A DNA stretch of 64,000 nucleotides. Source: a virus. The notes below the pieces were generated by a model. That model was not told the origin of the DNA. It worked only from the letters and a program-made list of their open reading frames with translations, and ran no database searches. This document shows, piece by piece, positions 3,746-47,164 of the stretch (the stretch's first letter is position 1; each line of letters begins with the position of its first letter). Made by a program: the position numbers and the translations under genes. The DNA lies in the IMG/VR virus record IMGVR_UViG_3300021960_000059, positions 1-64,000 of that record. The stretch is one strand, 5' to 3'.

Positions 3746-6004
3746 CTATTTATACTTTTTTTCTGCCATCTTAATTGCAGTCATCTTCATTACTTGCTCT
3801 GCTCGATTACCATATTTTGCAAAACGAGACAAGTCAAACGACTCCATGATACGATTTACTTCCTCATCGAGTTTAGGATCGACTTCTACTTTTGTCTGCT
3901 TTCCTGTTTTCCCGACAACTTTTTTCTTTTCGTCTTCTTTGTCAGAAACTTCTTTTTCTGCATCATCTTCTGCTTCATCAGCATCTTCGTCTTTTATCGC
4001 TTTGGATACTGTTTTGCGTCTATTGTGTAGATATTCATCAGATCCATCTACATCACCATCATTATCGATATCTTTGTCTTTGCGATCTTTAAACTTCTTC
4101 TTCAATGCTTTAGGTTGGACTTTATCTAACCCTTCTCCATCGTCAGACTTATCGTTAGTGTTGTCTTCTTTATTAATCGACTTACCTTCCCAGATTGCTC
4201 TGAGTGTGTCTTCAAGAGACATTGTTTCTTTGACTTCTTCTACCAACTTAACAGTGACATCTGAAGATTTGAAACTGTGAACTTTCATTTTTTTAGATGC
4301 TTTTGCAATTGCATCTTTCTCATTCTTTGCCGTGACGGTTTCGCGTCCTGCACCTTTGATGTCCACTTGATATGTTGCTTCTTCTAATTCTTCAAACACA
4401 GATTCAAAGAGTTCGTTTGTTTGTTCTTCATTCATTTCTACTTCCTCCGCATAGTAGTCTGCAATTTTCTTAGGTGAGTCAAAGAACTTCGATCCTTTCT
4501 CACCTTTCTTAGACATGAACCATCCACCTGCACCGTCATCCAGATCACCAGATGCGACTTCTTTGTTGCCAACCATTACAAGAGCAACACCGTCGCCCTT
4601 AGTGACAACTTTGGTCTTACCCTTGGTTGCGAGGACACGCATTGCTTCGTCCAGTTCCATTTCAACTGACTCTTTCTTTGACTTGATTTGTGAAACCTTT
4701 GCCATTGCTTTCTTGAAAATACTTGGATTATTTGTTTTGATTTCTTTTTCCAACTTGTTGACCGCATTCATTTCTGCACTGGTTGGTTTGTAGTTTTTAT
4801 TCTTCTTGAACTTAGAGGTCACAGCATTGACTGTTTTTTCTAATGCGGCAGATACTTTCCCATCAGTTTGATGGTCTAACATTGCCAGACTCATCGCAAC
4901 CACAGGTAATGACATACCCATACCTAACATTGCACCGAATATTTGGAGTGTTGGATCAATGTTTTCGTCCAGTTCAACAGACTCCTTGTACATGTTCAGT
5001 TCGTACTTCTTGTTGTCAAGATTAGCAACTTGAATCTGTACACCCTTCTTGCCATCCTTGCCCTTCAAACGATAAGAGTTTGTCTTACCTGCAGAAGGTT
5101 TACGAGGACCGGATGCAACCTTGTCGTCAATCTCTTTTGGATCAATCTCAATTCCAAACTTCTTCTTTGCATAGTCATACGCATGCTTCATCGCAGACGA
5201 GAAGTCCTTGTGATATAAGTCGTATCCAGAACCACCGGACTTCGATGGATCACGATTTGCTTCTTCTAGTTCAACCTCTTCCTTGCTAAAACGATTTCCA
5301 ATCATCTTCGCACGTGCGTCGTTGTGTCCCTTAGACCAAGCAGTGTACTCTTTCGTACCTTTCTTGTTAGGGTTGTCGTCGTAACTTACCTTCTTCGCAA
5401 CTGCTTTCTTACCGTCTTCGTATGCTTTTGCTTCAGCAGGAGTCTTGTATGCTTCGTCCAGTTCGACTTCTTCAAAAACAACAGGCATAGATACAGTTGC
5501 TTGTGTCTTTGGATCAAGAACTGTCATACGTTCTTTACCTTTAGTGTCGTTCTTATAATCTTTTGAAACTTTCTTGAAGTTTGCTTGTGAGATATGAACC
5601 TTACCGTCTTTTACTTTGTAGTCTCTACCGGAAAGAACTGCTTCTTCAAGTTCATCAAGTTCTTCCAACTCTTCTAATGTAAAGTCTTCAATCTTAAACC
5701 CACCACCTTGGACTGTTACTTTGATGCCGTTGTTACGCATAACACTAACAATCTTTTCACGAGGTGAAGTGTCTAAGTCCATCAGATCACGCGCAAACTT
5801 TGAAGTGACACGAGGAGACTTCTTACTTGCGATTGCTGACATACGGTTTGCGAATGCTAAGAAATCGTTCTTATCCATGCCACCCTTTGTCTTTGCATAT
5901 TGCGTTAGTTCTTTTGCCGCACCTGCATAGTCTGCCTTAGAGACATCAAATGGAGGGTTATCTTTTTTTTCTGCCATCATTCTGATGGTATTTGCTAAGT
6001 TCAT
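3746..6004 (-). CDS. Modular polyprotein with repeated LxE|A head-protease-like sites (putative capsid cargo)
   Basis: 752 aa. Short domains of about 60-120 residues are separated by acidic linkers that end in an LxE motif, mostly followed by Ala: after residues 121 (LEE|A), 184 (LDE|A), 248 (LEE|A), 347 (LDE|N), 453 (LDE|A) and 542 (LEE|A), with a weaker MNE|E at 526. The typical linker reads EEVELDEA. T4-type prohead protease gp21 cuts after Glu in L/I-x-E sites, and this phage's capsid protein carries LLGE|A at residue 60. Residues about 349-377 are hydrophobic (IFGAMLGMGMSLPVVAM). The C-terminal third is very acidic then basic (DNDGDVDGSDEYLHNRRK, an EF-hand-like loop). I infer a precursor that is packaged and cut into peptides; no module has a known enzyme motif. 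Confidence 0.6.
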   Translation of the reverse strand: MNLANTIRMMAEKKDNPPFDVSKADYAGAAKELTQYAKTKGGMDKNDFLAFANRMSAIASKKSPRVTSKFARDLMDLDTSPREKIVSVMRNNGIKVTVQGGGFKIEDFTLEELEELDELEEAVLSGRDYKVKDGKVHISQANFKKVSKDYKNDTKGKERMTVLDPKTQATVSMPVVFEEVELDEAYKTPAEAKAYEDGKKAVAKKVSYDDNPNKKGTKEYTAWSKGHNDARAKMIGNRFSKEEVELEEANRDPSKSGGSGYDLYHKDFSSAMKHAYDYAKKKFGIEIDPKEIDDKVASGPRKPSAGKTNSYRLKGKDGKKGVQIQVANLDNKKYELNMYKESVELDENIDPTLQIFGAMLGMGMSLPVVAMSLAMLDHQTDGKVSAALEKTVNAVTSKFKKNKNYKPTSAEMNAVNKLEKEIKTNNPSIFKKAMAKVSQIKSKKESVEMELDEAMRVLATKGKTKVVTKGDGVALVMVGNKEVASGDLDDGAGGWFMSKKGEKGSKFFDSPKKIADYYAEEVEMNEEQTNELFESVFEELEEATYQVDIKGAGRETVTAKNEKDAIAKASKKMKVHSFKSSDVTVKLVEEVKETMSLEDTLRAIWEGKSINKEDNTNDKSDDGEGLDKVQPKALKKKFKDRKDKDIDNDGDVDGSDEYLHNRRKTVSKAIKDEDADEAEDDAEKEVSDKEDEKKKVVGKTGKQTKVEVDPKLDEEVNRIMESFDLSRFAKYGNRAEQVMKMTAIKMAEKKYK
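3747..3754 (-). promoter_or_regulatory. T4-type late promoter overlapping the end of the polyprotein gene
   Basis: Exact TATAAATA on the minus strand, 27 nt upstream of the ATG at 3720. It is made from the last codons and stop of the upstream gene (TAT AAA TAG). It should be read by the gp55 sigma factor encoded at 39762-40331. Confidence 0.75.
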
Positions 6005-6017
6005 AGGAATTTACCTT

Positions 6018-8690
6018 TTAGTTGTCTACTTTTGCTGATGCTCTCCACTGGTAACAAGACCAGTAACGTGCTTTCCATTTTGGTCCCGGATCATCACATC
6101 CGTGTCTCGCACGAAAACTTTTTCTACGAGCCGGATCGTCTCGTTTAATTTCCATATTAGGATCACCAAAGTTTACTTTTACAACATTTCCTTTTTCGTT
6201 CTTGACATAGACAGAGAACTTTTTAGGACCATCTGGTGTTCTAAATGGGTTGTTAAGTTTAACATTTTTCTTTTTACCATCTTCTTCTACGATTGTTATT
6301 TCTTCAATAATGTGATCAAAATGAGAATCACAATCGTTACAACACGATTCTTCATTCATCATATCTGCTAAGACTCTTGCATCGACACCATCAAACTGCT
6401 TGGCAATTTGTGCCGCATAGTATTCGATTGAGTGCTGAAGTCCTTTCTTACCGCCTTCTTTTTTCTTGCGATCAAGCACATCTGCCAGAACTTTCTTTGC
6501 CATATCATAACCCTTCTTGTGAGTTATCTTCGACAAAGGTTCAAGCAACCAACGAGGCATTTCTTCCAATGCTTCTTCACCCATCGGCACCACAGGACGA
6601 GCATTAGGAACACCCAACATTGCCTTTAAATTTTTCTTAGGTTTCTCGTGCGTCCAACCTTGCTTTGACAAACGCTCATGATCCGCAGGAACCTTTGCCA
6701 ACTCTGACTCACCAGTTTCTGGATTATACATCATATGAGGTTTAAAGTCGTCTTCGTTCTTAGGTTTTTCACCACGTTCTTTTTTAGAGATTGCGATTGC
6801 CGCTTGTTGAGCAGGAGAGATTGCTTCTGGCACACAATCAGGAACCATCTTGTCCCCTTTCTTCTTCATACCAACTTGCTTGTATCCATCCCAACACTTC
6901 TCGTCGAGTTCGATTTCTTCTCTCAGTCTTGGTTCTCTACGGTTTTTAGACGGGTCTTCCATCCTCAAATTTTTCGGGTCATTGTTTAATGGGTTGTTGT
7001 CTTTATGACCAACGTCTTTGCCTTTAACTGCTTTGTCACCCATAATTCTTCTTGCTTGGTTTCTTGATGACCTTCTTGCAATTTGTTCAGGTTTACCCTG
7101 ATAGTTTTCATATTCTTTTTTATAATCTCTTTCTTCTTTAACACCCTTTGCAAGGTCTTTATCTGCACCACCCCAAGTTCCTTTGCCCTTGGTAATGAAT
7201 GAGTTGACTCGTGCAAATCCCCACTGCTGTTGTGTCGCACCGGGACGGTGACCTGTCTTCCATGCCGCCATACCACGATTATACACCTGACGCAAAACAC
7301 TAACAGGGATGCCTGACTTCTCACTTTTTTTCTTTAATGCGTTAGTCGCATCTTCACTGAGTTCATACTCTTCTGTTTGAGTGTTTGTTGTTTGCGTGTC
7401 TTTTGTCCGAGCACGATCAAGCATTGCATCATGCTTACGTTTGTCTGATTCTTTCTCACGTTTAATTTTATCTTGTGCCGCTTTAACTGCATCTTGCTCA
7501 CCAAACATCTTTTTATACTTGAGTGTATGCTTGCTTGGTTTTGTTTTCGCATCAGCATCACCCGGTGCAGATTTGTATGATGACGGAGACCCATCTGGTT
7601 TATCCGCACCTTTTGCAAATTGTTTTGCTCTGGATTCCTTCTCTTTGTCAGAAAGTCCCTTATAGTACTTCTTCGGTTGAGTACCGGGCAAGTCTTTAAC
7701 ATCAGAATCTTGGTCAGTTTTTTTGGGTGCTTCTTTTTCGTCCTTTTCCATAATTAAAAATAATTCTTCAATCAACGGATCAAACTGTTCTTCTTTGGGA
7801 CCACTGCGTACTTGTGCCAATCTTTCCGCCTCCTGTTTACGAACTTTAGGAATTAACTTTTTAGCAAGTTTTTGGATTATGGCACTTTTCTTTGTAATCA
7901 TTTTATCAACAGAAACTTTTTCTGCCGAACTTAATTCATTATAGGAAGCACCTCGATCTCCTGCCACTTTGGTTCTAATTATATTTCTTGCTTGCTTAAG
8001 TGCTCTTTTTTTAATTGTGTCACCGTCTGCTTTACGTTTTGCTTTTAACTTACGCATTCTAGCAAGTTTTGGTGCAAGTCGTTTCATTCTCCTACCAATC
8101 TCTTTACGTTGTTGAATGGTAAGAGGTTGACGATTTTCTTCTACACTCTCTTTAATAACACTATTGATAATATCATAGATTATTTTTGCATCTGAACCCT
8201 GAAGTTTTTTTGGTAGTCCAGACTTGAATGTATCAAAATCACCGTCTTTTGCAAGTGCTCTTAGTTTGGATGCAGACATTCCTTCAACACCCTGTGCATC
8301 AGGATCTCTTTCACCTGCAGACACAACTTTAACTGAATCGAATGTAAAATCTTTTCCATTATATTTATTGAGGAGGGTTTGAAATTCTTTCACACGATCA
8401 GATCCGACGACCATAATAGCATCAGTGTAACCTGCCTTCTGGAGTTCTTTTGCGACATCGAATACAGTTTTACTTTCGGATTGTATGATAGAATTTCCGA
8501 ATGCTTTTTTCGCAAAACGAATCTTGTCTTTATAACTAAGGGGATCTTTCTTATTATTTTGAGTATGCGACAAGTAAACCCTTGCTTCAGCACTGTTTGT
8601 CTTTGCAACTGTATTTACTTTGTCTACCAGTTTTTGGTGGCCAATAGTCGGAGGGTTCATGCGTCCAAATGTGAACACGATCTTTTTCAT
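6018..8690 (-). CDS. Multidomain polyprotein: nucleotidyltransferase + DUF5824-like + HNH + DUF5872-like modules
   Basis: 890 aa from the ATG at 8690, which has an AAGGA site 7 nt upstream; an upstream TTG at 8720 is less likely. Residues 1-180 are a HIGH-type nucleotidyltransferase (FGRMNPPTIGHQ, later GMSASKLR). Residues 190-300 are very basic. Residues 446-512 look like the phage DUF5824 module (SGIPVSVLRQVYNRGMAAW). Residues 538-590 look like an HNH nuclease (DVGHKDNNPLNN, then NLR and SKNRR). The end (825-881) resembles DUF5872 (VNFGDPNMEIKRD, then SFRARH). LxE-type sites lie at EIELDE|K (597) and ALEE|M (710), with weaker ones at 309, 446 and 796. Probably a late-made precursor cut by gp21 and carried in the head. 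Confidence 0.65.
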   Translation of the reverse strand: MKKIVFTFGRMNPPTIGHQKLVDKVNTVAKTNSAEARVYLSHTQNNKKDPLSYKDKIRFAKKAFGNSIIQSESKTVFDVAKELQKAGYTDAIMVVGSDRVKEFQTLLNKYNGKDFTFDSVKVVSAGERDPDAQGVEGMSASKLRALAKDGDFDTFKSGLPKKLQGSDAKIIYDIINSVIKESVEENRQPLTIQQRKEIGRRMKRLAPKLARMRKLKAKRKADGDTIKKRALKQARNIIRTKVAGDRGASYNELSSAEKVSVDKMITKKSAIIQKLAKKLIPKVRKQEAERLAQVRSGPKEEQFDPLIEELFLIMEKDEKEAPKKTDQDSDVKDLPGTQPKKYYKGLSDKEKESRAKQFAKGADKPDGSPSSYKSAPGDADAKTKPSKHTLKYKKMFGEQDAVKAAQDKIKREKESDKRKHDAMLDRARTKDTQTTNTQTEEYELSEDATNALKKKSEKSGIPVSVLRQVYNRGMAAWKTGHRPGATQQQWGFARVNSFITKGKGTWGGADKDLAKGVKEERDYKKEYENYQGKPEQIARRSSRNQARRIMGDKAVKGKDVGHKDNNPLNNDPKNLRMEDPSKNRREPRLREEIELDEKCWDGYKQVGMKKKGDKMVPDCVPEAISPAQQAAIAISKKERGEKPKNEDDFKPHMMYNPETGESELAKVPADHERLSKQGWTHEKPKKNLKAMLGVPNARPVVPMGEEALEEMPRWLLEPLSKITHKKGYDMAKKVLADVLDRKKKEGGKKGLQHSIEYYAAQIAKQFDGVDARVLADMMNEESCCNDCDSHFDHIIEEITIVEEDGKKKNVKLNNPFRTPDGPKKFSVYVKNEKGNVVKVNFGDPNMEIKRDDPARRKSFRARHGCDDPGPKWKARYWSCYQWRASAKVDN

Positions 8691-8753
8691 AGGGTTTTCC
8701 TTAGACTTACCTATTGACAATACTTTAATTTTTGTGTATAATCAATTTGTAGT

Positions 8754-8773
8754 TATTTATAATAGTATTTATA
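8754..8773 (-). promoter_or_regulatory. Tandem T4-type late promoters
   Basis: Two exact TATAAATA boxes on the minus strand, at 8761-8754 and 8773-8766, lie about 65-80 nt upstream of the polyprotein ATG at 8690. This AT-rich stretch (about 8691-8776) has no gene. It shows that the polyprotein genes are expressed with the virion genes. Confidence 0.75.
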
Positions 8774-8776
8774 AAT

Positions 8777-8803
8777 TTACTTTTGCCATCCTTTGATCAC
8801 ATT
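8777..8803 (-). repeat. Orphan copy of the 3' end of the DUF6267-like gene
   Basis: Read on the minus strand this encodes N-V-I-K-G-W-Q-K-stop, matching D-V-I-K-G-W-Q-K-stop at the true end of the ligase-fold gene (9432-9406), with 22 of 27 nt identical. It has no start of its own and lies directly behind the stop of the methyltransferase gene between the two copies. It looks like the scar of an insertion. Confidence 0.7.
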
Positions 8804-9404
8804 AAGATAATTTGATTTCGCATAGGAAGTGTTTCCTTCCTTCAAATATTTTATTGACAATCTCAATCTTTGTTTCTTTGAGTTTGTTTGGTTTTGTTGC
8901 ATCCTTACGAATATCAAAAATCAGTTTGGTATTTTCATGCGAGTGCTTTCTGATTAGATCGACGTATTCTGAAATGGGATAATGAAATCCACAAGACTTA
9001 AAAGAGCAGATCAGATCAAACATTTGATCGTCAGGAATATCAATATTGTTTGCATCAACAAATCGATAGGTCATATCGCGACACTCATACGATTTTCTCA
9101 GATCATCAATTGGCGAATAGAATGCAAATTTATCAGCAGTCCCCCAATTATAATATCGAGTTTGCTTTCTTGGTTCGTTGATCGATTTGTCACCATCAAG
9201 CAACCACAACTCAGTGCCATAATCTTTCTGAAACCATTCTGCCTCACGAGCAATTCCACATCCAATCTCTAGCATTTTCTTTGGAGGAGTATCCAAATAA
9301 TCTTTTAGAATGTCGTAATTTTCTTTCTTATTGACTACATGATCTTTTTTTTTCTTTGATGCTGGTTTGTTCCACACATCAACCCAATCATAATTTTGAC
9401 CCAT
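8802..9404 (-). CDS. Class I SAM-dependent methyltransferase, probable inserted gene
   Basis: 200 aa. Motif I is LEIGCGIAREAEWF (about residues 45-58), followed by an acidic post-I strand (LWLLDGD) and a motif IV-like FDLICSFKSCGFHYP. No target-recognition domain is visible and there is no DPPY/NPPY, so the substrate is probably a small molecule, protein or glycan rather than DNA. It starts 1 nt after the DUF6267-like gene and is flanked by two copies of that gene's last nine codons, which points to insertion at that gene's 3' end. The methylated target is unknown. Confidence 0.65.
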   Translation of the reverse strand: MGQNYDWVDVWNKPASKKKKDHVVNKKENYDILKDYLDTPPKKMLEIGCGIAREAEWFQKDYGTELWLLDGDKSINEPRKQTRYYNWGTADKFAFYSPIDDLRKSYECRDMTYRFVDANNIDIPDDQMFDLICSFKSCGFHYPISEYVDLIRKHSHENTKLIFDIRKDATKPNKLKETKIEIVNKIFEGRKHFLCEIKLS

Positions 9405-9405
9405 A

Positions 9406-10635
9406 CTATTTTTGCCAACCCTTGATCACATCATCAGAAAAATTAGCACGTGAGAATTCTAATCGATTTACAAGTTTGACTGCTTCTCCATCATTATTAA
9501 TTGCAACATAACCTTCTGGTGCTGTTACTTCAAACCCTTTACTTGTCTTTAGAAATGTTCCGATACTTGATGCTTTGTCCATCTTCTTTATGATCAACTC
9601 CTTCGCATCGATGATCTGATTCATCAGTGTGAAGATCTTCACCAAATCTGCTGAGTTGGAGGAGCCAAAGAATTGCATCATTTCTTTCTTCTTCTGTATC
9701 CAAGGTGCTTTTCCCTTTTCTGTTTTTTTCGATTCAATTTGCTTAGTGTAATATTGAATAACATAGTTCATGAGACCACGCACATGGTTTCTTGGATTTG
9801 CAATCTTCTCACCCGCACGAACTTTCGTGTTGAAGTGAGTCTTAATACGAGTTTTAATTTCATCGCTCTCAGCAATTGCGTTCAGTGTCTTTGCACTGAT
9901 ACCACGAAATGTCTTACCCGCGGATGATAGTATGGATGTGACTGCGGCAGTTTCTTTTGCAGTCATTGATGCAGAACCTGACACATCTTTGTAGGTTGCA
10001 TCAGTGTGCCATACACCTTTTGTTTGGGTCAGTTTAGATGAGATGTCCTGACCGAACTCTGCCTTCATTGATTCAAAACTGTCTCCGACATAACGAGTGT
10101 GCCAGACGATACCAATTTTGGAGGAACGTATTTTCTTTCCAAGTTCACTACTGTAGGGGACGGTGTAGACAATCGTATTGGGGTGAAAGGTGACGAGTTT
10201 TTCACCATCAATGACTTCGGTCCCAAGAGTGTCGTTGGAGTACAGAAAGTCACCTTGTATGACTCCTGTAATTCCCAACTTGGGGAGTTCGGACAGAGCG
10301 AGTTTAAATTTAGTACTAAGATCGTTACTACCAAGATCTCCATCTATCTCTGCCTCTGTCTTGTAAATTTTTGGATCTTTGTTGAAAATTCCTTTCTTTG
10401 CAATGAAAAACTTTCCATCACGTGGATCAGTCCCTGCAAAAATAGCAGGAGCACCATCCCACTTAACAGTGGTATTAACAGGACGAGCAGTACTGCCAGA
10501 TAACATATCCCTGAGACTTTGTAAAAAATTGATTGCATCTCTTGCACCCTTTACACCATTGTTGAGAACCGAATCCTCTAGATGTTCCATGTGAGTGTTC
10601 TTTTGCTCTGTTAGGTAGGAGGTGAATTTTTTCAT
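9406..10635 (-). CDS. Nucleotidyltransferase/ligase-fold protein (DUF6267-like) with a capsid-targeting-like N-terminus
   Basis: 409 aa. KWDGAPAIF (Lys58-x-Asp60-Gly61) matches motif I (KxDG) of covalent DNA/RNA ligases and capping enzymes. GDFLY (128-132) and KIGIVWHTRY fit later ligase motifs. The family resembles DUF6267 of T4-like cyanophages; its activity is not known to me. The N-terminus MKKFTSYLTE|Q resembles the T4 capsid-targeting sequence MKTYQEFIAE that directs internal proteins into the prohead before gp21 cleavage. It starts in a 4-nt overlap with the 511-aa gene. I infer a packaged ligase-like enzyme; that is not demonstrated. Confidence 0.65.
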   Translation of the reverse strand: MKKFTSYLTEQKNTHMEHLEDSVLNNGVKGARDAINFLQSLRDMLSGSTARPVNTTVKWDGAPAIFAGTDPRDGKFFIAKKGIFNKDPKIYKTEAEIDGDLGSNDLSTKFKLALSELPKLGITGVIQGDFLYSNDTLGTEVIDGEKLVTFHPNTIVYTVPYSSELGKKIRSSKIGIVWHTRYVGDSFESMKAEFGQDISSKLTQTKGVWHTDATYKDVSGSASMTAKETAAVTSILSSAGKTFRGISAKTLNAIAESDEIKTRIKTHFNTKVRAGEKIANPRNHVRGLMNYVIQYYTKQIESKKTEKGKAPWIQKKKEMMQFFGSSNSADLVKIFTLMNQIIDAKELIIKKMDKASSIGTFLKTSKGFEVTAPEGYVAINNDGEAVKLVNRLEFSRANFSDDVIKGWQK

Positions 10636-12167
10636 TTAAACATAAAATCCTTTACATCCGATGGTGCTGATACTCTTGCACTTTTTAGTTCAATTCCTAA
10701 AAATGCAAATAGGTTTTTAAATGCATCCTTCCCCATCTTCATAATTTTCTTTACTGCATTTTTTGCACGAGTGAAAATTCGTCCCATCAAATTGGAAACA
10801 AACTTGCCAACTGCACCAACAACATTACGCATGCGACTGATTGCTCTTTTAAATAAAGTCATCTCATCTAGGTTTACTGACTCCGAAAGCAAATCTTTGT
10901 TCATTTCTTGCACCCACGAATCGTTAAGAATTTCCTCACGAATGATCGAGTCTAACGATTCACTAAGTTTTGCTTTTGAGTCCACATTGATTCTGAAAGT
11001 AGAGTAGGGACTTCCACTCGACGATTTCCATGAGGTATAAAATGTGCATTGCTTTGCGATTGACTTAATTTCTGAGGATACTTTAACTGCACCCGAAAGA
11101 CCCTTACTAGACCCATCTGGTGAAATAGGAATAAATTTACTCACTGCTCCTTTGTTTGCATCAAACTCAATGCAACATGATGCAATTGCAAGAGGTGTTT
11201 TGCCCTCAAACTTTTTACGACCAGACATTGCTTCATACACAAAGAATTCTTTGAACTGTTCATTTTCTTCCACTGCGAATGTCTTTTTAATTTCTTCATT
11301 AATTTCTTTGTGGAATGCTTCCACCGAAACATATTTTTCTACTGATTTTTTATCTTCAGGGGACAGTGTTGAGGTGTCTCCTTTTGACAATTTATCCAAT
11401 GCGGTCTTCGTCATTTTAGTTGCGACTTTATCAAACTTCTCATCAATCTGACTTGCGATTTCACGAACACCGATGGGACTGTTTTCTCCCAAGTATTCAA
11501 GAGCCGCGTTAAAGGTTGCAATAGTTTCTTCTTTTGCGGCAGACATTAACTGAGAACCACCTTTTTTCTTCAACGAAATATTGTGAGTCTTAGTATACAT
11601 ATCAGATTTTGGTGTTCCATCTGATGCACCAAATGATGCCCAGAACTTAGATAAATTTGATTTGGATTTGCCTTTACCGAATTGGGTCATCGGTGACTTA
11701 CCAATATACTGCACGAAATCTTTTGCAATATTTTCTGCGTAAGTCTCGTATGTAGGATAGAATCGTTTTGCATTCTCTGATGCGGATGCGTCAGGTGTTA
11801 GTTTATTCTGTAGGTTGTATTTGTCTGTGATTAAATCTTCCCAATCATGACCTTCTGGTGATGATGTTGTCTTATCCGCGGCAACAACTACGACATACTC
11901 CAGTCCATCTTCTGGGTTGACAAATAGTACTGCTTCATACTGACTACTTGGATTGCCACCTGCTTTTGGAGGTGATATCCGAGCAGTTGTATTAAATGTC
12001 TTTTCTATTTGTTTTTGGATCTCATTGACTGTAGATCCCCTGACACGAATGCCACCTTGCTGATTCATTTTTTCAAGATCTGGCATTGCATCGAGCAGTT
12101 TTTTTGCAACTTTAGTATAAGTGCGTTTTGGTTCTGATTGTTCTAAAATAAACTGTGAAAACTTCAT
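10632..12167 (-). CDS. Putative head-packaged protein with a nuclease-like motif
   Basis: 511 aa. The N-terminus MKFSQFILE|Q again resembles the T4 capsid-targeting peptide. Residues about 184-212 (TPKSDMYTKTHNISLKKKGG, then SQLMSA) have a D-x(n)-S-x-K pattern, with Asp189, Ser198 and Lys200, as in some PD-(D/E)xK nucleases. A second LxE site (VNLDE435|M) separates a basic amphipathic C-terminal segment (440-490, RAISRMRNVVGAVGKFVSNL) that could bind DNA or membrane. It is translationally coupled to the ligase-fold gene downstream. Probably a virion-internal protein; the nuclease reading is moderate at best. Confidence 0.5.
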   Translation of the reverse strand: MKFSQFILEQSEPKRTYTKVAKKLLDAMPDLEKMNQQGGIRVRGSTVNEIQKQIEKTFNTTARISPPKAGGNPSSQYEAVLFVNPEDGLEYVVVVAADKTTSSPEGHDWEDLITDKYNLQNKLTPDASASENAKRFYPTYETYAENIAKDFVQYIGKSPMTQFGKGKSKSNLSKFWASFGASDGTPKSDMYTKTHNISLKKKGGSQLMSAAKEETIATFNAALEYLGENSPIGVREIASQIDEKFDKVATKMTKTALDKLSKGDTSTLSPEDKKSVEKYVSVEAFHKEINEEIKKTFAVEENEQFKEFFVYEAMSGRKKFEGKTPLAIASCCIEFDANKGAVSKFIPISPDGSSKGLSGAVKVSSEIKSIAKQCTFYTSWKSSSGSPYSTFRINVDSKAKLSESLDSIIREEILNDSWVQEMNKDLLSESVNLDEMTLFKRAISRMRNVVGAVGKFVSNLMGRIFTRAKNAVKKIMKMGKDAFKNLFAFLGIELKSARVSAPSDVKDFMFK

Positions 12168-12189
12168 AGTGAATCCTTATTTGTATGCA

Positions 12190-12369
12190 CTATTTATCTT
12201 TTCTGAAACCCATAAAGTTATTTGGGTCAACATGTTTTAGTACAGTTTCTTGAACCGCATTGGTGTACGCATCGTACAACATGCTATAGAACTCACCCTG
12301 CTTTTCCGATGGAACGAACAGGTCTTTTGCTTCCTCCGGAGTTAGATCCATTTCTACCTTGATCTTCAT
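12190..12369 (-). CDS. Small protein resembling the N-terminus of DUF6489
   Basis: 59 aa beginning MKIKVEMDLTPEEAKDLF. This opening closely resembles small alphaproteobacterial and phage proteins of the DUF6489 type (M-K-x-x-V-E-x-D-x-T-P-E-E-A). An upstream GAGGTG gives a good ribosome-binding site for the ATG at 12369. It overlaps the 3' part of the 119-aa gene by 77 nt in another frame, so one of the two reading frames may be shorter than annotated. No function is known. It is too short for a catalytic domain and may be a regulator or adaptor. Confidence 0.55.
   Translation of the reverse strand: MKIKVEMDLTPEEAKDLFVPSEKQGEFYSMLYDAYTNAVQETVLKHVDPNNFMGFRKDK
12191..12198 (-). promoter_or_regulatory. 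Probable late promoter (GATAAATA) across the stop of the small upstream gene
   Basis: GATAAATA on the minus strand matches the late box at 7 of 8 positions, 24 nt upstream of the ATG at 12167. It overlaps the last codons (GAT AAA TAG) of the 59-aa gene, the same arrangement as at 3747-3754. Confidence 0.5.
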
Positions 12370-12652
12370 TCATCACCTCATAGTTCATTTCTACTGGAAC
12401 GCTGACGGATTTCCCCCAACGATTCTTTTTTGTTACACATTTAAATCGACCGGGTATCCATCCTTCTGGTGGATCTGGTATATTCTTATCAATTGCTGTG
12501 AGTTCGCGTGTAGTTGTACCAACAAAGATACGAGAGTCTTTCTTTCCTCGCATTGTGGCACGAACGCATGAATGGATTTGTCGATTGACATAACGGTCAA
12601 ACTTGTCTTCACCGTTTTCTCTGTAGAATACTTTAACTTCAAAATCACTCAT
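12293..12652 (-). CDS. Hypothetical protein downstream of the tRNAs
   Basis: 119 aa from the ATG at 12652 (MSDFEVKVFYRENGEDKFDR). The first ~95 residues look like a compact alpha/beta domain (YVNRQIHSCVRATMRGKKDS, then a Pro-rich PDPPEGWIPGRF). The last 25 residues are low-complexity (NGSNSGGSKRP) and are read through the start region of the 59-aa gene. It follows tRNA-Trp by 13 nt and is probably expressed from the tRNA promoter. A TGAGAGA like that of the early leaders precedes it. I do not recognise the family. Confidence 0.5.
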   Translation of the reverse strand: MSDFEVKVFYRENGEDKFDRYVNRQIHSCVRATMRGKKDSRIFVGTTTRELTAIDKNIPDPPEGWIPGRFKCVTKKNRWGKSVSVPVEMNYEVMNEDQGRNGSNSGGSKRPVRSIGKAG

Positions 12653-12665
12653 AATGTCTCTCATG

Positions 12666-12739
12666 TGGCAGAGGCACAGGGATTTGAACCCCGACGAACG
12701 GTTTTGGAGACCGTCATGCTACCATTACACCATGCCTCT
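12666..12739 (-). tRNA. tRNA-Trp (CCA anticodon)
   Basis: The acceptor stem pairs AGAGGCA with TGCCTCT. The anticodon stem ACGGT/ACCGT encloses the loop CTCCAAA, giving anticodon CCA. The T loop is TTCAAAT. A discriminator G and an encoded CCA end the gene. It is the last tRNA of the cluster. Confidence 0.9.
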
Positions 12740-12744
12740 AAAAT

Positions 12745-12929
12745 AAAGTGCGGAACGGGTGGATTAGGGTAACCACCAATGGGGTACGATCTGAAGTACC
12801 TTTCTAAATAGACCCCATACGACCTGCATTCCCGCGAAGGACATGGGCGCTACCCCTTCGGTCTACCTTACCCCCCTTCAGCGAGAGGTATTCGGTCACG
12901 TTCCTATCGGTGTTGCAATCACCGAACTC
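12745..12929 (-). ncRNA. Candidate structured non-coding RNA inside the tRNA cluster
   Basis: About 185 nt without a plausible gene between tRNA-Cys and tRNA-Trp. It is more G/C-rich than its surroundings and has several perfect stems: 12907-12912 with 12920-12925 (TCGGTG/CACCGA, 7-nt loop), 12835-12840 with 12855-12860 (CGAAGG/CCTTCG), and 12779-12784 with 12813-12818 (ATGGGG/CCCCAT). The last competes with an inner hairpin, 12783-12787 with 12796-12800. It lacks a T loop and D arm, so it is not an ordinary tRNA. It should be transcribed with the tRNAs. Confidence 0.45.
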
Positions 12930-43240: not shown

Positions 43241-44608
43241 TTACATCAAGTTTGCAACCTTGACCAAACGGTAGTAAAGGTTCTTCTTAGCAAAGGCAAT
43301 TGCACCGTCTGCATTAGAAGTAGCAAATGGGTTTGCAACCATTCCGTAACGAGTCTTGAACCCGATCTTAGGTTGGAATGTATTCTCACCAACCGCACGA
43401 ACCATCTGGAGTGGTACGTATGGGCAGTAGAACAGACCTGCGTCAAACGCATTGCTTCCTTTGTAACCAATTGTGTAGTAGTTATTGGTTGCATCTGAGA
43501 AGTATGGATCAATGTATACACGGATACGACCGTTCAAGACACCTGCGAATGTGTTGCCTGTGTCATCAACTTGCAAGTTGTTAGACAAAGCAGGAGTATA
43601 ATCAAGAACACCTGCCATCTGAAGTGCTGAAGCAACATCAGAAGAAGTGATCATCATATTACCCTTACCACGACGAGTTGCTTTCGCAATTTCGTTCGCA
43701 TCACGTTCGATTTGGAACATCAAACCTTTGAACTTCTCTGCCATCCAACGACCGTTAGAGTCGGTGTCAAGATCGAAAGTACCGGCCGTAGTGACATTGA
43801 TCTGAGCACCTGCAGTTGCTGTATAGTTGATTGTACGAACAACTTCACGGTTGATTTCAGCAAGAATTTCAGCAGACAAGATGTTTGACAACTCTTGCTC
43901 TGCATCCAGACCGTGGATTGCTTTGAGGTCTTGTGCAAGTTCCATTGTGTATTCTGCTTTCAGAGCACGAGTCTTAGCAGTTACTGAAACTTTCTCGATT
44001 GAGAATGCCATCTCTTGGAAAGAGTTCTGAGAGTCGTCTCCCAATGCTTCTCCAGTTGCTGTTGACATACCTGTTGATACAGTATATCCAGAACCTGAAG
44101 CACGATCATTAGGATCAGTACCAGTTGCACTTGTACCTGCAGATCCGTCGATTGCAACTTGTGAATTAGTGTTAGCACCTGCTGATGCAGAGAATGTAGT
44201 ATCTGCTTCGTTGAACAGTGCTTCTGTGCCAGATTGGTTGCTATAACGAGAACGCATTGCAAAGATCAGTCCAGTAGGACCAGTCATTGGTTGAACACCA
44301 CAAATGTCGTATGCAATCAGATTAGGCATAGAACGACGAACCAGTGAAATCAGTACTGGATCGAATGTGTCGATAGAACCATCAGCTGCTACAGAAGATG
44401 AAGCGCCCATTGCGTTAGTTGGTGATGCTTCTCCAAGTAACGTAGTAGTGTGCGATCCGCCTTGATGAATTGCTTGTTCACGAGCAGATTGATATTGGTT
44501 TTCCAGAAGTTGGGCAGTTACTGTACGCTTATGTGCGTCCTTGATTGGTTCAAGGTCAGCATGCTCAAGAACTGGTTGCCACTTTTGAATAAGAGCATCA
44601 GTTGCCAT
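43241..44608 (-). CDS. 23: Major capsid protein gp23 precursor
   Basis: 455 aa, HK97-fold capsid protein of T4-like phages. The N-terminal ~60 residues are the removable delta domain, ending in TTTLLGE60|ASPTNAMG, which fits gp21 cleavage (L-x-E|A) and sets the local cleavage consensus. DPVLISLVRRSMPNLIAYDI, then CGVQPMTGPTGLIFAMRSRY is the signature stretch of T4-type gp23. The late promoter at 44653-44660 and a strong terminator bracket the gene. Confidence 0.95.
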   Translation of the reverse strand: MATDALIQKWQPVLEHADLEPIKDAHKRTVTAQLLENQYQSAREQAIHQGGSHTTTLLGEASPTNAMGASSSVAADGSIDTFDPVLISLVRRSMPNLIAYDICGVQPMTGPTGLIFAMRSRYSNQSGTEALFNEADTTFSASAGANTNSQVAIDGSAGTSATGTDPNDRASGSGYTVSTGMSTATGEALGDDSQNSFQEMAFSIEKVSVTAKTRALKAEYTMELAQDLKAIHGLDAEQELSNILSAEILAEINREVVRTINYTATAGAQINVTTAGTFDLDTDSNGRWMAEKFKGLMFQIERDANEIAKATRRGKGNMMITSSDVASALQMAGVLDYTPALSNNLQVDDTGNTFAGVLNGRIRVYIDPYFSDATNNYYTIGYKGSNAFDAGLFYCPYVPLQMVRAVGENTFQPKIGFKTRYGMVANPFATSNADGAIAFAKKNLYYRLVKVANLM

Positions 44609-44665: not shown

Positions 44666-45757
44666 TTACTTTTTAATCGACCGACTAATAGCATCTGTAA
44701 ATGCTTTCATTTGTGGATCAATCTGAACTTCGTTTTCTTCATCCAGTTCAACTGGTTCTGAGTCGAATGAAGTATCTTCAGAAATAACTTCTTCTTGTGG
44801 GAAGTAGTTTTCTTTGATAGTCTCCAACTTCTTCGCATAGTCTTCGGCAGAATCAAACTCAACACCTTCAGCGAGAGATTGCATCTTGACTACTTGAGAT
44901 TCAGTTAGACCTTCAGTTACATCGCGCAGAATTTCTGACTTTTTAGATTCAATGATTTCCTTACGAGATACGATGTTCTTTTCGACTTCTTCACTTAAAG
45001 ATTCTTCCAGCTCAGCAATCTTTGATGCGAGTTCGTCAACAAGGTCAACTTTCTCTTCTGGAATGTCAATATATGATTCAGTAAATAAGTTACGCAGACC
45101 TACCATAAAGTTTTCTGCGATTTCTGAACGAATGCCTTGCTCAACTGCCAGTTCATTTTCTTTCATCCACTGCTCAACTACATATTCCATGTAGTCATCC
45201 AATCGAGATGTCAATGACTCAACGATTTCTTCTTTCTCTGCTTCCATTTCTGCTTCAAGATCAATGGTTACTGTTTCCAGAATTTCGTTGACCTTTGACA
45301 CAACTGCCGCTTCAAAGATAGTAGTTGCTTTAGAAGTGAAGTCTTCTGACAGGTCTTCACCTGCGAACATTGCTTCAACATCTTCTGCGACATTTACATC
45401 TTCAGCAGAGACTTTCTTAATTTCTTTGATAGAAGTTACTGAGGAATTTTCTTCCACAGACTCTGACCTCATTCCACCACACATTGCTTCGTATGCCGCT
45501 TTCAGTTCTTCTTTCCTCAAGTTTTGCATATGCGCCATCGCTGCTTGTAACATAGCAACCTTAGTCTTTGGCACTTCTGATGATGAACGTTTCGGTGCCG
45601 ATTTCTTTTCTTTATCGGCATCTTTTCCTTCAGCACCGGGTGCATCTACCTCTTTTGTTGTTGGATCAGGCACTTCGGATGGATCTCCTAGAGATGCTTT
45701 CACCTCTACGATTTGTCCTTCTTCCTGTTCCAACATTTCCATTTCTTGATCGGACAT
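44666..45757 (-). CDS. 22: Prohead core scaffold gp22
   Basis: 363 aa, highly acidic and predicted almost wholly helical, with long heptad stretches (KVDLVDELASKIAELEESLS, then EEVEKNIVSRKEIIESKK). The end, PQMKAFTDAISRSIKK, is typical of T4-like gp22. It scaffolds the prohead and is destroyed by gp21 before packaging; several L-x-E triplets are present. It lies between gp21 and gp23 as in T4, with its own late promoter. T4 gp22 is shorter (269 aa). Confidence 0.85.
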   Translation of the reverse strand: MSDQEMEMLEQEEGQIVEVKASLGDPSEVPDPTTKEVDAPGAEGKDADKEKKSAPKRSSSEVPKTKVAMLQAAMAHMQNLRKEELKAAYEAMCGGMRSESVEENSSVTSIKEIKKVSAEDVNVAEDVEAMFAGEDLSEDFTSKATTIFEAAVVSKVNEILETVTIDLEAEMEAEKEEIVESLTSRLDDYMEYVVEQWMKENELAVEQGIRSEIAENFMVGLRNLFTESYIDIPEEKVDLVDELASKIAELEESLSEEVEKNIVSRKEIIESKKSEILRDVTEGLTESQVVKMQSLAEGVEFDSAEDYAKKLETIKENYFPQEEVISEDTSFDSEPVELDEENEVQIDPQMKAFTDAISRSIKK

Positions 45758-45805: not shown

Positions 45806-46459
45806 TTAAAGTTTCGATAGAAAATTCTTAAAAATCCGCAACTTCGTTTCTTCTAAATCACGAGAAGATGCCTTAACGACTTCTTCTTTGTAATCTGCGA
45901 TAGATGCTTCTTTGATGAGACCATTGTCCCAAATCCACTCCTTACCTTCCATAATACCATTGACAAATGCATCTGGTGCTGATGGATCAGCAACAATGTC
46001 ACCTGCTGTTGCAAGATAGAAATCCCCTTGAACCTCATTCACACCTTGACGATTTGGTTTCAAAGAACCCATGCCACGAGAAGACACTGCTAACTGTCCC
46101 CCATCGTCCATGATGCCCTTAACAATCGCACCCATTGGTGTTTCTGCTAAAATCTTTGCACGACCTCTGAAGTTTGCTCCGTCACGTTTCAAATCAGTAA
46201 TTAAATGAGATACTCGTTCAAGATTAATAGTCGGTCCACTTGGATGACCTAATTCTCCATATGCACGATTTTTTTCAACATACTCTTTGTTATATCGTTT
46301 TACTTCTTTATCTAGCACTTCGGCAGGATACATACGACCATTACGGTTCTTGATGTCGCCTTGCATGAAGATACCTTCGATAAAGTAGTTCTTTTTACCG
46401 TCTTCTTTTGCCTCAGAGATATACTGAATATCTTCATTGAGTTCTGTGATCAGTTTCAT
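45806..46459 (-). CDS. 21: Prohead core protease gp21
   Basis: 217 aa from the ATG at 46459 (MKLITELNEDIQYISEAKED); the longer frame runs through the upstream gap. IEGIFMQGDIKNRNGRMYP and RAYGELGHPSGPTINLERVS (catalytic His region) followed by QLAVSSRGMGSL (catalytic Ser region) are the S78/T4 protease motifs. It cuts gp22, gp23 and internal proteins after L/I-x-E. Its own N-terminus holds ITELNE, which resembles such a site. This enzyme is the predicted processor of the polyproteins at 3746-8690. Confidence 0.95.
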   Translation of the reverse strand: MKLITELNEDIQYISEAKEDGKKNYFIEGIFMQGDIKNRNGRMYPAEVLDKEVKRYNKEYVEKNRAYGELGHPSGPTINLERVSHLITDLKRDGANFRGRAKILAETPMGAIVKGIMDDGGQLAVSSRGMGSLKPNRQGVNEVQGDFYLATAGDIVADPSAPDAFVNGIMEGKEWIWDNGLIKEASIADYKEEVVKASSRDLEETKLRIFKNFLSKL

Positions 46460-46460
46460 T

Positions 46461-46709
46461 TTAGTATCCCGTAGAAGAAATATGAGTACCGAATAAAGTA
46501 GTTGCTCCACGCAATCCTTGCCCGATTTCTAAATGAATTACTTGTCCACCACCTGCGGGAATATAAACACTTCCTATATCACCATCGTCATCTGCATTTC
46601 GGACAGTAACTAATGATGCTGTTGATGTGTTAAAAACATACACTGATGTGGCATTTTTAAAATTAGTGGTTCCAGTTGCAAGTGCTGTTGCCGTACTTAA
46701 TACTTTCAT
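46461..46709 (-). CDS. Small hypothetical structural-type protein inside the head operon
   Basis: 82 aa, MKVLSTATALATGTTNFKNA, then TSVYVFNTSTASLVTVRNAD; beta-rich with few charges, ending GTHISSTGY. The YIPAGGGQVIHLEIGQGLRG segment and the composition recall small head or tail decoration proteins of marine phages. It starts in TAATG with the gp68-position gene and ends 1 nt before gp21, so it is made with the prohead core. There is no T4 counterpart at this position; whether it is in the virion is untested. Confidence 0.55.
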   Translation of the reverse strand: MKVLSTATALATGTTNFKNATSVYVFNTSTASLVTVRNADDDGDIGSVYIPAGGGQVIHLEIGQGLRGATTLFGTHISSTGY

Positions 46710-47164
46710 TACTTACCTCCGAACGCAACGTCCATTAATTTCATGAACACTTCTGGAGACTTTTCAATCTGGTCTTCCATTTTTTTCTTGTTTTTGTCGT
46801 TGATCTTCTTGTAAAGATTAAGCATTGCGTTGGCAGTTGTCATATCTATCTTTAGTGTCTTACCGTTTTCAAACTTAACTGAACCTGTTGACTTTTTGTC
46901 AACGATATTTTTTAAACCGTCCATGACTTTGCCCTCAGTCAAATCGAGTGACTCCAACTCTTCTTTGATAGTGCCGTTGAATACATGATCTTGTCCGGGG
47001 GCTGCTAGGTAATCAGTCTTTTGCACCATGTGTTGGTTAGCAAAATCTTCTTCACCTTTTGATCTGGGTTTATACCCTTTAACTTCATCATCACCATCTT
47101 TTGGTGCGACAGCATCCGCGGCAGATGCTTCTGTTACGAATTTACTAAACTTCTGAATCGACAT
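46709..47164 (-). CDS. Prohead core protein in the gp68 position with a capsid-targeting-like N-terminus
   Basis: 151 aa. It begins MSIQKFSKFVTEASAADAVA: K-F-x-K-F-V-T-E|A resembles the T4 capsid-targeting peptide (MKTYQEFIAE|A) and the starts of the two cargo proteins near 10-12 kb. The rest is charged and helical, ending FMKLMDVAFGGK. The place between gp67 and gp21 matches T4 gp68, but sequence similarity to gp68 was not tested. It overlaps gp67 by 20 nt. Probably a core or internal head protein. Confidence 0.6.
   Translation of the reverse strand: MSIQKFSKFVTEASAADAVAPKDGDDEVKGYKPRSKGEEDFANQHMVQKTDYLAAPGQDHVFNGTIKEELESLDLTEGKVMDGLKNIVDKKSTGSVKFENGKTLKIDMTTANAMLNLYKKINDKNKKKMEDQIEKSPEVFMKLMDVAFGGK

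Follow-up and report, generated by a model that had tools for sequence, protein, structure and literature searches.

Modular proteins of a T4-like phage, probably processed in the phage head

The T4 internal proteins (IPs) IPI, IPII and IPIII, as well as Alt, are late head-core cargo bearing a short N-terminal peptide that ends in xxE, and they are processed by gp21 at L/I-x-E sites; the internal proteins are ejected into the cell together with the DNA (PMC9026906). Here we describe two adjacent genes, encoding proteins of 752 and 890 amino acids (aa), in a stretch of 64,000 nucleotides (the window; positions 1 to 64,000) of the 68,192-base IMG/VR virus record IMGVR_UViG_3300021960_000059. The source is a marine T4-like phage, and homologues of gp23, gp22 and gp21 are all encoded in the window (PHROGs search). 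Pelagibacter phage HTVC008M and Methylophilales phage Melnitz provide the nearest isolate matches of the two proteins. Both genes probably encode late polyproteins of internal head proteins, which gp21 would cut into separate modules, a dozen small proteins in all.

Each T4 IP, like Alt, receives one N-terminal cut and gives one product, whereas 6-8 internal sites and many exchanged, unrelated modules are present here. T4 gp22 and gp67 are acidic prohead proteins with many LxE sites and several gp21 fragments, and VELDE also occurs in the gp22 of the window phage. However, the T4 gp22 fragments are mostly expelled scaffold debris, while conserved folded domains lie between the sites of the present proteins. 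Polyvalent proteins (including DarA/DdrB of phage P1) join unrelated, effector-like domains in one late chain; their DNA-linked delivery has been proposed and some of them are processed (Iyer et al., 2017, PMC5512222). Several mutually unrelated domains per chain, with domain shuffling between elements, characterize that class and are found here as well. The release of polyvalent domains is credited to embedded peptidase domains, a common although not universal feature, whereas a separate gp21 would act here through short linkers; Pfam and PHROGs detected no peptidase family in the 752-aa and 890-aa proteins. Concerning the ejection proteins of the giant phages phiKZ and SPN3US, which are cleaved by gp175/gp245, they share related prohead proteases, several xxE cuts per protein and ejection as cargo, but the cuts remove one pro-peptide per protein and a multi-domain release from one chain is not described (PMC10052503). 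Finally, the cyanophage virion nucleotidyltransferase/NMNAT-like proteins (T4-GC190; S-SM1, S-CREM2, S-SZBM1) share homology with the first 181 residues of the 890-aa protein, although the copies compared are 286-386 aa long and carry a targeting-like N-terminus of their own (MKNFSSFLTE, MRFRQFIIE). Taken singly, there are precedents for gp21-processed internal proteins, for multi-cut core proteins and for polyvalent proteins; no earlier description of a gp21-cut polyprotein of exchangeable cargo modules was found in the open-access literature searched.

Linker motifs and module exchange

The initial annotation of this DNA had placed sites after residues 121, 184, 248, 347, 453 and 542 of the 752-aa protein, and all six are exact (LEE/A, LDE/A, LEE/A, LDE/N, LDE/A and LEE/A; the slash marks the candidate cut). 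Its linkers terminate in (E)(E)VEL[DE]E/A, far more often than chance would give. Specifically, E[LI][DE]E occurs 8 times and [LI][DE]E[AGSN] 6 times, against 0.12 and 0.31 expected from 5,000 composition shuffles, and linker motif density per 1000 aa is 16 in this protein, 2.2 in the 890-aa protein and about 1 in the other proteins of the window. Chance due to acidic composition was excluded for the 752-aa protein by the shuffles, the low density elsewhere in the window and the acidic control sites given below. In the 890-aa protein, EIELDE/K597 and ALEE/M710 are likewise found exactly where they had been predicted, and additional sites are IKE/S181, IME/K315, LSE/D446, MNE/E780 and IVE/E802. 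The shuffles gave a weak excess of [LI]xE (12 vs. 6.4 expected, p=0.02), 4 vs. 0.96 for [LI][DE]E (p=0.015) and 0 vs. 0.24 for the full linker form, so that chance from acidic composition is not rejected for this protein on motif statistics alone.

Because motif statistics on a single protein would not carry the case, relatives were brought in, namely about 60 non-redundant multi-site IMG/VR proteins. They reassemble the same modules (Table 1) in differing orders, and homology stops at [LIMV][DE]E sites. With the linkers masked, 50% of homology breakpoints lie at most 10 aa from a site, compared with 16% at random positions, whereas acidic control sites without a hydrophobic residue at P3 (P1 to P3 being counted back from the cut) account for 16% of breakpoints vs. 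11% at random. Module M4 was found in 53 distinct non-redundant IMG/VR contexts, its neighbours varying from contig to contig; its flanks nearly always read L[DE]E/[AG]KS or ELDE/AKY on the N-terminal side and [SE]V[ED]L[DE]E/ on the C-terminal side. It is identical over the 83-residue core searched in one relative whose downstream modules are unrelated, while another relative has M3 and M6 in reverse order. At the DNA level, M4 homology often ends 0-5 bases from the scissile codon. The EVELDEA linker has 9 DNA encodings in 12 contexts, and therefore the constraint is on the peptide; a DNA-level recombination signal was excluded, as the linker peptide has many synonymous encodings. For M5, the context comparison revealed no homologue with a matching start. 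A search of relatives had been suggested in the initial annotation, with loss of the motifs in homologues that keep the domains as the contrary outcome. The motif recurs at module boundaries with changing neighbours and no such loss pattern appeared, contexts without the motif being in the minority.

Taken together, the 276 sites conform to the consensus E-E-V-E-L-[DE]-E/[AGK] and lie a median of 86 aa apart. LxE keeps a nearly fixed offset before the DUF5824 module (82/86 contexts), the basic module (50/52), the C-terminal module of the 890-aa protein (74/75) and M4 (52/56). When the M4 contexts are scored irrespective of the motif, Glu occupies P1 68 times and Asp 6 times, while P2 holds Glu 38 times and Asp 32 times (Fisher p=4e-7). 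T4 gp21 requires L/I-x-E. In the T4 IPIII targeting peptide, a final Asp permits targeting but blocks processing (PMC9026906). Positions consistent with L/I-x-E maturation are strong in the 752-aa protein and are given in the 890-aa protein by homologue register only. Cleavage at the linkers is thereby suggested, as judged from the sequences.

The boundary between modules is also used at N-termini. The module start KKDxPPFD is preceded by MNLANTIRMMAE/ in the window phage and close relatives, and the same start residue follows EDVELDE/ in L050, EEVKLDE/ in L053 and EDIELDE/ in L049 (L numbers are our sequence labels). Pro-peptide and internal linker are therefore interchangeable, and MNLANTIRMMAE/, with Met at P3, is plausible as the targeting peptide of the 752-aa protein. 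Elsewhere, modules stand as separate genes with T4-like targeting peptides (MKKFSEIIE/A, MKKFSELTSELIE/R, MITFKKYLEE/K). The basic helical module is standalone in phage Melnitz with an N-terminal MKKFSELTSELIE/, and the DUF5824 module in phage C48C1 with MITFKKYLEE/K, while the C-terminal 890-aa module is a separate gene in HTVC008M. Additionally, the gp22 of the window phage, whose T4 counterpart is a classic substrate of gp21, carries the same linker motif (SEPVELDE/E), with EEVISE/DTSFDSEPVELDE/E near its C-terminus.

It could be argued that the modules stay together, in the virion or in the cell, as one uncut polyvalent chain whose acidic linkers are flexible spacers or recombination joints. 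Phages and plasmids do encode polyvalent proteins that unite numerous unrelated domains (PMC5512222), clear module shuffling would arise without cleavage, and flexible linkers are predicted between the domains of the 890-aa protein. However, a spacer or joint needs neither Glu over Asp at P1 with P2 left free nor a hydrophobic P3, and acidic sites without the latter show little breakpoint enrichment. The synonymous variation in linker DNA, the use of the same boundary by N-terminal pro-peptide-like sequences and the presence of the motif in gp22 speak against it as well, and we consider an uncut chain unlikely.

The linkers could instead be prohead-core binding (targeting) motifs, repeated for avidity and not primarily cut sites, and for this the T4 IP peptide, whose residues 4 and 7 are aromatic, is the point of comparison. 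Its targeting and processing signals share the same 10 residues, of which residues 4 and 7 are needed for targeting, residues 8 and 10 for processing (PMC9026906, after which the positions were mapped here). Such a role would suit the 890-aa protein, which lacks an N-terminal targeting peptide and hence would need internal targeting if packaged. The internal linkers, however, preserve P3 and P1, where processing is determined, and Glu mostly occupies the positions that govern targeting; moreover, targeting motifs are not required at every module boundary; avidity is thus a very improbable account of them.

Domains, virion homologues and points against cleavage

An AlphaFold model of the 890-aa protein (18 sequences) gave folded domains with a predicted local distance difference test (pLDDT) of 80-93 and a predicted template modelling score of 0.30, and all candidate sites fall in interdomain segments with a mean pLDDT of about 32-59. 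The nucleotidyltransferase predicted initially was upheld by phrog_3041 (E=4e-91), although it is below the Pfam cut-off; Foldseek matched it to 8aii NadD (E=2.5e-4), and the structure search showed resemblance to NaMN adenylyltransferase and phosphopantetheine adenylyltransferase structures. The DUF5824-like call also held (E=4e-20), while the HNH call had weak matches only, to phrog_7545 (E=6e-5) and, below cut-off, to Pfam (E=9e-4). The HNH-like module is missing in some relatives, where DUF5824 is joined straight to the next module via EEVELDE/. Putative functions are limited to the nucleotidyltransferase and the weak HNH assignment.

Homologues of the nucleotidyltransferase were detected by mass spectrometry in virions of S-SM1 (PMC3037559), S-CREM2 (PMC10665884) and S-SZBM1 (PMC9146016), and NMNAT was detected in S-SCSM1 virions (PMC9602691). 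Furthermore, gp160 of S-CREM2, a virion-detected multi-LxE protein, contains a CWPGY module with a relative at residues 598-625 of the 890-aa protein. In S-CREM2, all four of the non-structural virion proteins termed "regulatory" (Table 1) begin with an FxxF[LM]xE-type sequence (MKDFDSFLEE, LRFASFMAE, KRFDAFLTE, MKNFSSFLTE), and these targeting-type N-termini would explain their presence in the head. Across the S-CREM2 genome, a loose targeting-peptide pattern is enriched among non-structural virion proteins (5/10 vs. 21/182, p=0.005). This is supportive and not independent, because the pattern was written after some of the sequences had been seen, and it is an enrichment and not a classifier, because five undetected proteins match too. 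With such homologues in virions, the two proteins are probably located in the head.

A location outside the virion, as cytoplasmic late proteins whose LxE motifs stem from acidic composition and common descent, would be compatible with the shortness of LxE and the near-chance strong-motif count of the 890-aa protein. The shuffles reject chance for the 752-aa protein, however, common descent fails to explain motifs kept at boundaries between differing neighbours, and several cyanophages carry homologues in their virions (PMC3037559, PMC10665884, PMC9146016). We regard this explanation as highly unlikely.

Several observations qualify, or weigh against, the reading as gp21-cut head polyproteins. 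The 890-aa protein has few strong linkers, their count being near chance, and no N-terminal targeting peptide is recognisable on it in the clade of the window phage; homologues outside this clade do bear one. In the 752-aa protein, the C-terminal ~210 aa do not divide neatly into modules. Linker disorder is not shown for this protein because its AlphaFold model is poor (mean pLDDT 48, 4 sequences); all six sites lie in low-confidence stretches, yet 62% of the chain does likewise, and for that reason the model was not used as evidence. The canonical site is missing in 4/56 M4, 4/86 DUF5824 and 21/73 nucleotidyltransferase contexts, the nucleotidyltransferase module often standing first in its chain. 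The internal linkers are without the aromatics of T4 IP targeting and therefore account for cutting, not for targeting. The "DUF5872-like" domain of the initial annotation was not found, the nearest family being DUF5754 (E=0.03, below cut-off). A peptide with a new N-terminus has never been reported. Virion detection concerns relatives only, with low peptide counts, and the authors of the S-CREM2 and S-SCSM1 studies warn of possible carry-over in CsCl preparations.

Genomic surroundings and proposed maturation

Table 1. Coordinates of the two modular proteins, their parts and associated features (window positions unless a sequence label is given; the slash marks a candidate cut)
Feature	Position	Strand	Basis
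752-aa modular protein	3746..6004	-	Open reading frame (ORF)
Residues 1-12, MNLANTIRMMAE/, candidate N-terminal capsid-targeting/pro-peptide	5969..6004	-	Swapped for internal linkers in relatives
N module, residues 13-121 (KKDNPPFD...), ends LEELDELEE/A	5642..5968	-	Comparative contexts
M2, residues 122-184, ends EEVELDE/A	5453..5641	-	Motif and comparative contexts
M3, residues 185-248 (AYKTPAEA...), ends EEVELEE/A	5261..5452	-	7 contexts, upstream neighbours differ
M4, residues 249-347 (GYDLYHKDFSSAMKHAYDY...), ends ESVELDE/N	4964..5260	-	53 distinct contexts
M5, residues 348-453, ends MELDE/A	4646..4963	-	Motif
M6, residues 454-542 (AMRVLATKGKTKVVTKGDGV...), ends FEELEE/A	4379..4645	-	12 contexts
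C-terminal part, residues 543-752, with EF-hand-like DKDIDNDGDVDGSDEYLHNRR region (~3995-4168)	3746..4378	-	phrog_22379
890-aa modular protein	6018..8690, ATG at 8690	-	ORF
Residues 1-181, NMN/NaMN-type nucleotidyltransferase module, ends VIKE/S	8148..8690	-	phrog_3041 E=3.7e-91
Residues 182-315, basic helical module, ends LFLIME/K	7746..8147	-	Homologues, site register
Residues 316-446, GTQPKKYYKG / KTKPSKHT conserved region and linker, ends YELSE/D	7353..7745	-	Homologue comparison
Residues 447-520, DUF5824 module	7131..7352	-	PF19141 E=4.3e-20
Residues 521-597, HNH-like module, ends EIELDE/K	6900..7130	-	Pfam, PHROGs (weak)
Residues 598-710, small CWDGYKQVG module plus the region after it, ends EALEE/M	6561..6899	-	Homologue comparison
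Residues 711-780, helical "PRWLLEPLSKI" module, ends MMNE/E	6351..6560	-	Contexts, AlphaFold
Residues 803-890, C-terminal "VKLNNPFR...DPNMEIKRDD" module	6018..6284	-	Homologues, site register
Tandem T4-type late promoter octamers TATAAATA	8754-8761 and 8766-8773	-	Upstream of 890-aa gene
DUF6267 protein, T4-IP-like targeting peptide MKKFTSYLTE/Q	9406..10635	-	PF19782 E=1.4e-116
511-aa protein, T4-IP-like targeting peptide MKFSQFILE/Q, plus SVNLDE/M	10632..12167	-	Sequence motif
gp23 major head protein with LLGE60/A	43241..44608	-	phrog_138 E=9.5e-165
gp22 scaffold homologue, linker motif near C-terminus	44666..45757	-	phrog_237 E=1e-78
gp21 prohead protease homologue	45806..46510 ORF, likely start 46459	-	phrog_207 E=1.2e-77
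S-CREM2 SAM (S-adenosylmethionine) hydrolase, Cas9-like HNH protein, APH-like kinase, nucleotidyltransferase	L010:3837-5081, 7704-10313, 10579-12846; L009:8109-8969		

The tandem TATAAATA octamers reported initially at 8754-8773 are present on the minus strand. Octamers of this type number 13 in the window (2.5 expected), several of them directly upstream of head genes, and they point indirectly to late expression of the 890-aa and 752-aa genes. The prohead protease homologue proposed at 45806-46459 was confirmed, with 46459 as the likely start, and the LLGE60/A of gp23, claimed as the expected gp21 site, is at the exact position. Concerning relatives, gp21 is encoded in all 5 of the contigs of at least 99 kb that bear such proteins, eight shorter fragments without gp21 being uninformative.

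The DUF6267 and 511-aa genes precede those of the 890-aa and 752-aa proteins, and both have clear targeting-like N-termini that resemble the T4 IP targeting sequence. A gene for a 200-aa protein bearing a methyltransferase-like MLEIGCG motif (8802-9404) separates the DUF6267 gene from the promoter of the 890-aa gene. A 151-aa protein (46709-47164) adjoins the head genes; it has a targeting-like start, MSIQKFSKFVTE/A, and an internal SLDLTE/G, and is a possible prohead core protein. The EF-hand-like region of the 752-aa protein recurs in cyanophage and pelagiphage relatives, often after a conserved EDNTNDKSDDGEG. In other phages, an AAA_33/zeta-toxin-like kinase module forms part of some chains; a modular protein of this type with 1,527 aa (L087:5561-10141) has such a domain at its C-terminus, along with HNH and DUF5824 modules. 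Stenotrophomonas phage DLP_6, from soil, encodes a 722-aa nucleotidyltransferase fusion (L004:5815-7983) that starts with MKNIKDILE/A and has several LxE sites, and the architecture is therefore not confined to the sea.

The central proposal of the initial annotation, that the two proteins are late, head-destined and cut by gp21, is supported by the breakpoints at LxE, the fixed register, Glu at P1, the gp22 motif, the virion homologues and the interchange of N-terminal peptide and linker. Both chains would be expressed late, and the 752-aa chain would be drawn into the prohead core, probably by an N-terminal peptide comparable to the one that targets T4 IPIII. Inside the prohead, gp21 would cleave the L/I/M-[DE]-E linkers behind their Glu, releasing proteins of roughly 60-180 residues. 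DUF5824, an HNH-like domain and an NMN-adenylyltransferase-like enzyme would be among them, together with several uncharacterised small domains. By likeness to the T4 IPs and Alt, the freed modules may remain in the head and then probably enter the cell with the DNA. Each module ends in its own cut site, and therefore in-frame exchange between phages is possible, and is seen. More broadly, we lean toward the view that combinatorial cargo polyproteins are a feature of T4-like phages, marine ones among others. In these, exchangeable effector modules, each closed by a gp21 signal, would be recombined at the scissile junction into new in-frame arsenals and freed by gp21 within the prohead before ejection.

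If true, this would give a common role, as head cargo, to many uncharacterised genes of the abundant marine T4-like phages, together with a sequence rule predicting packaged proteins and their cut positions. It would also provide a route into heads for the "regulatory" proteins detected in cyanophage virions (nucleotidyltransferase, kinase, SAM hydrolase and the Cas9-like HNH protein of S-CREM2), and would represent a viral-polyprotein strategy in DNA phages, with the capsid protease acting in trans.

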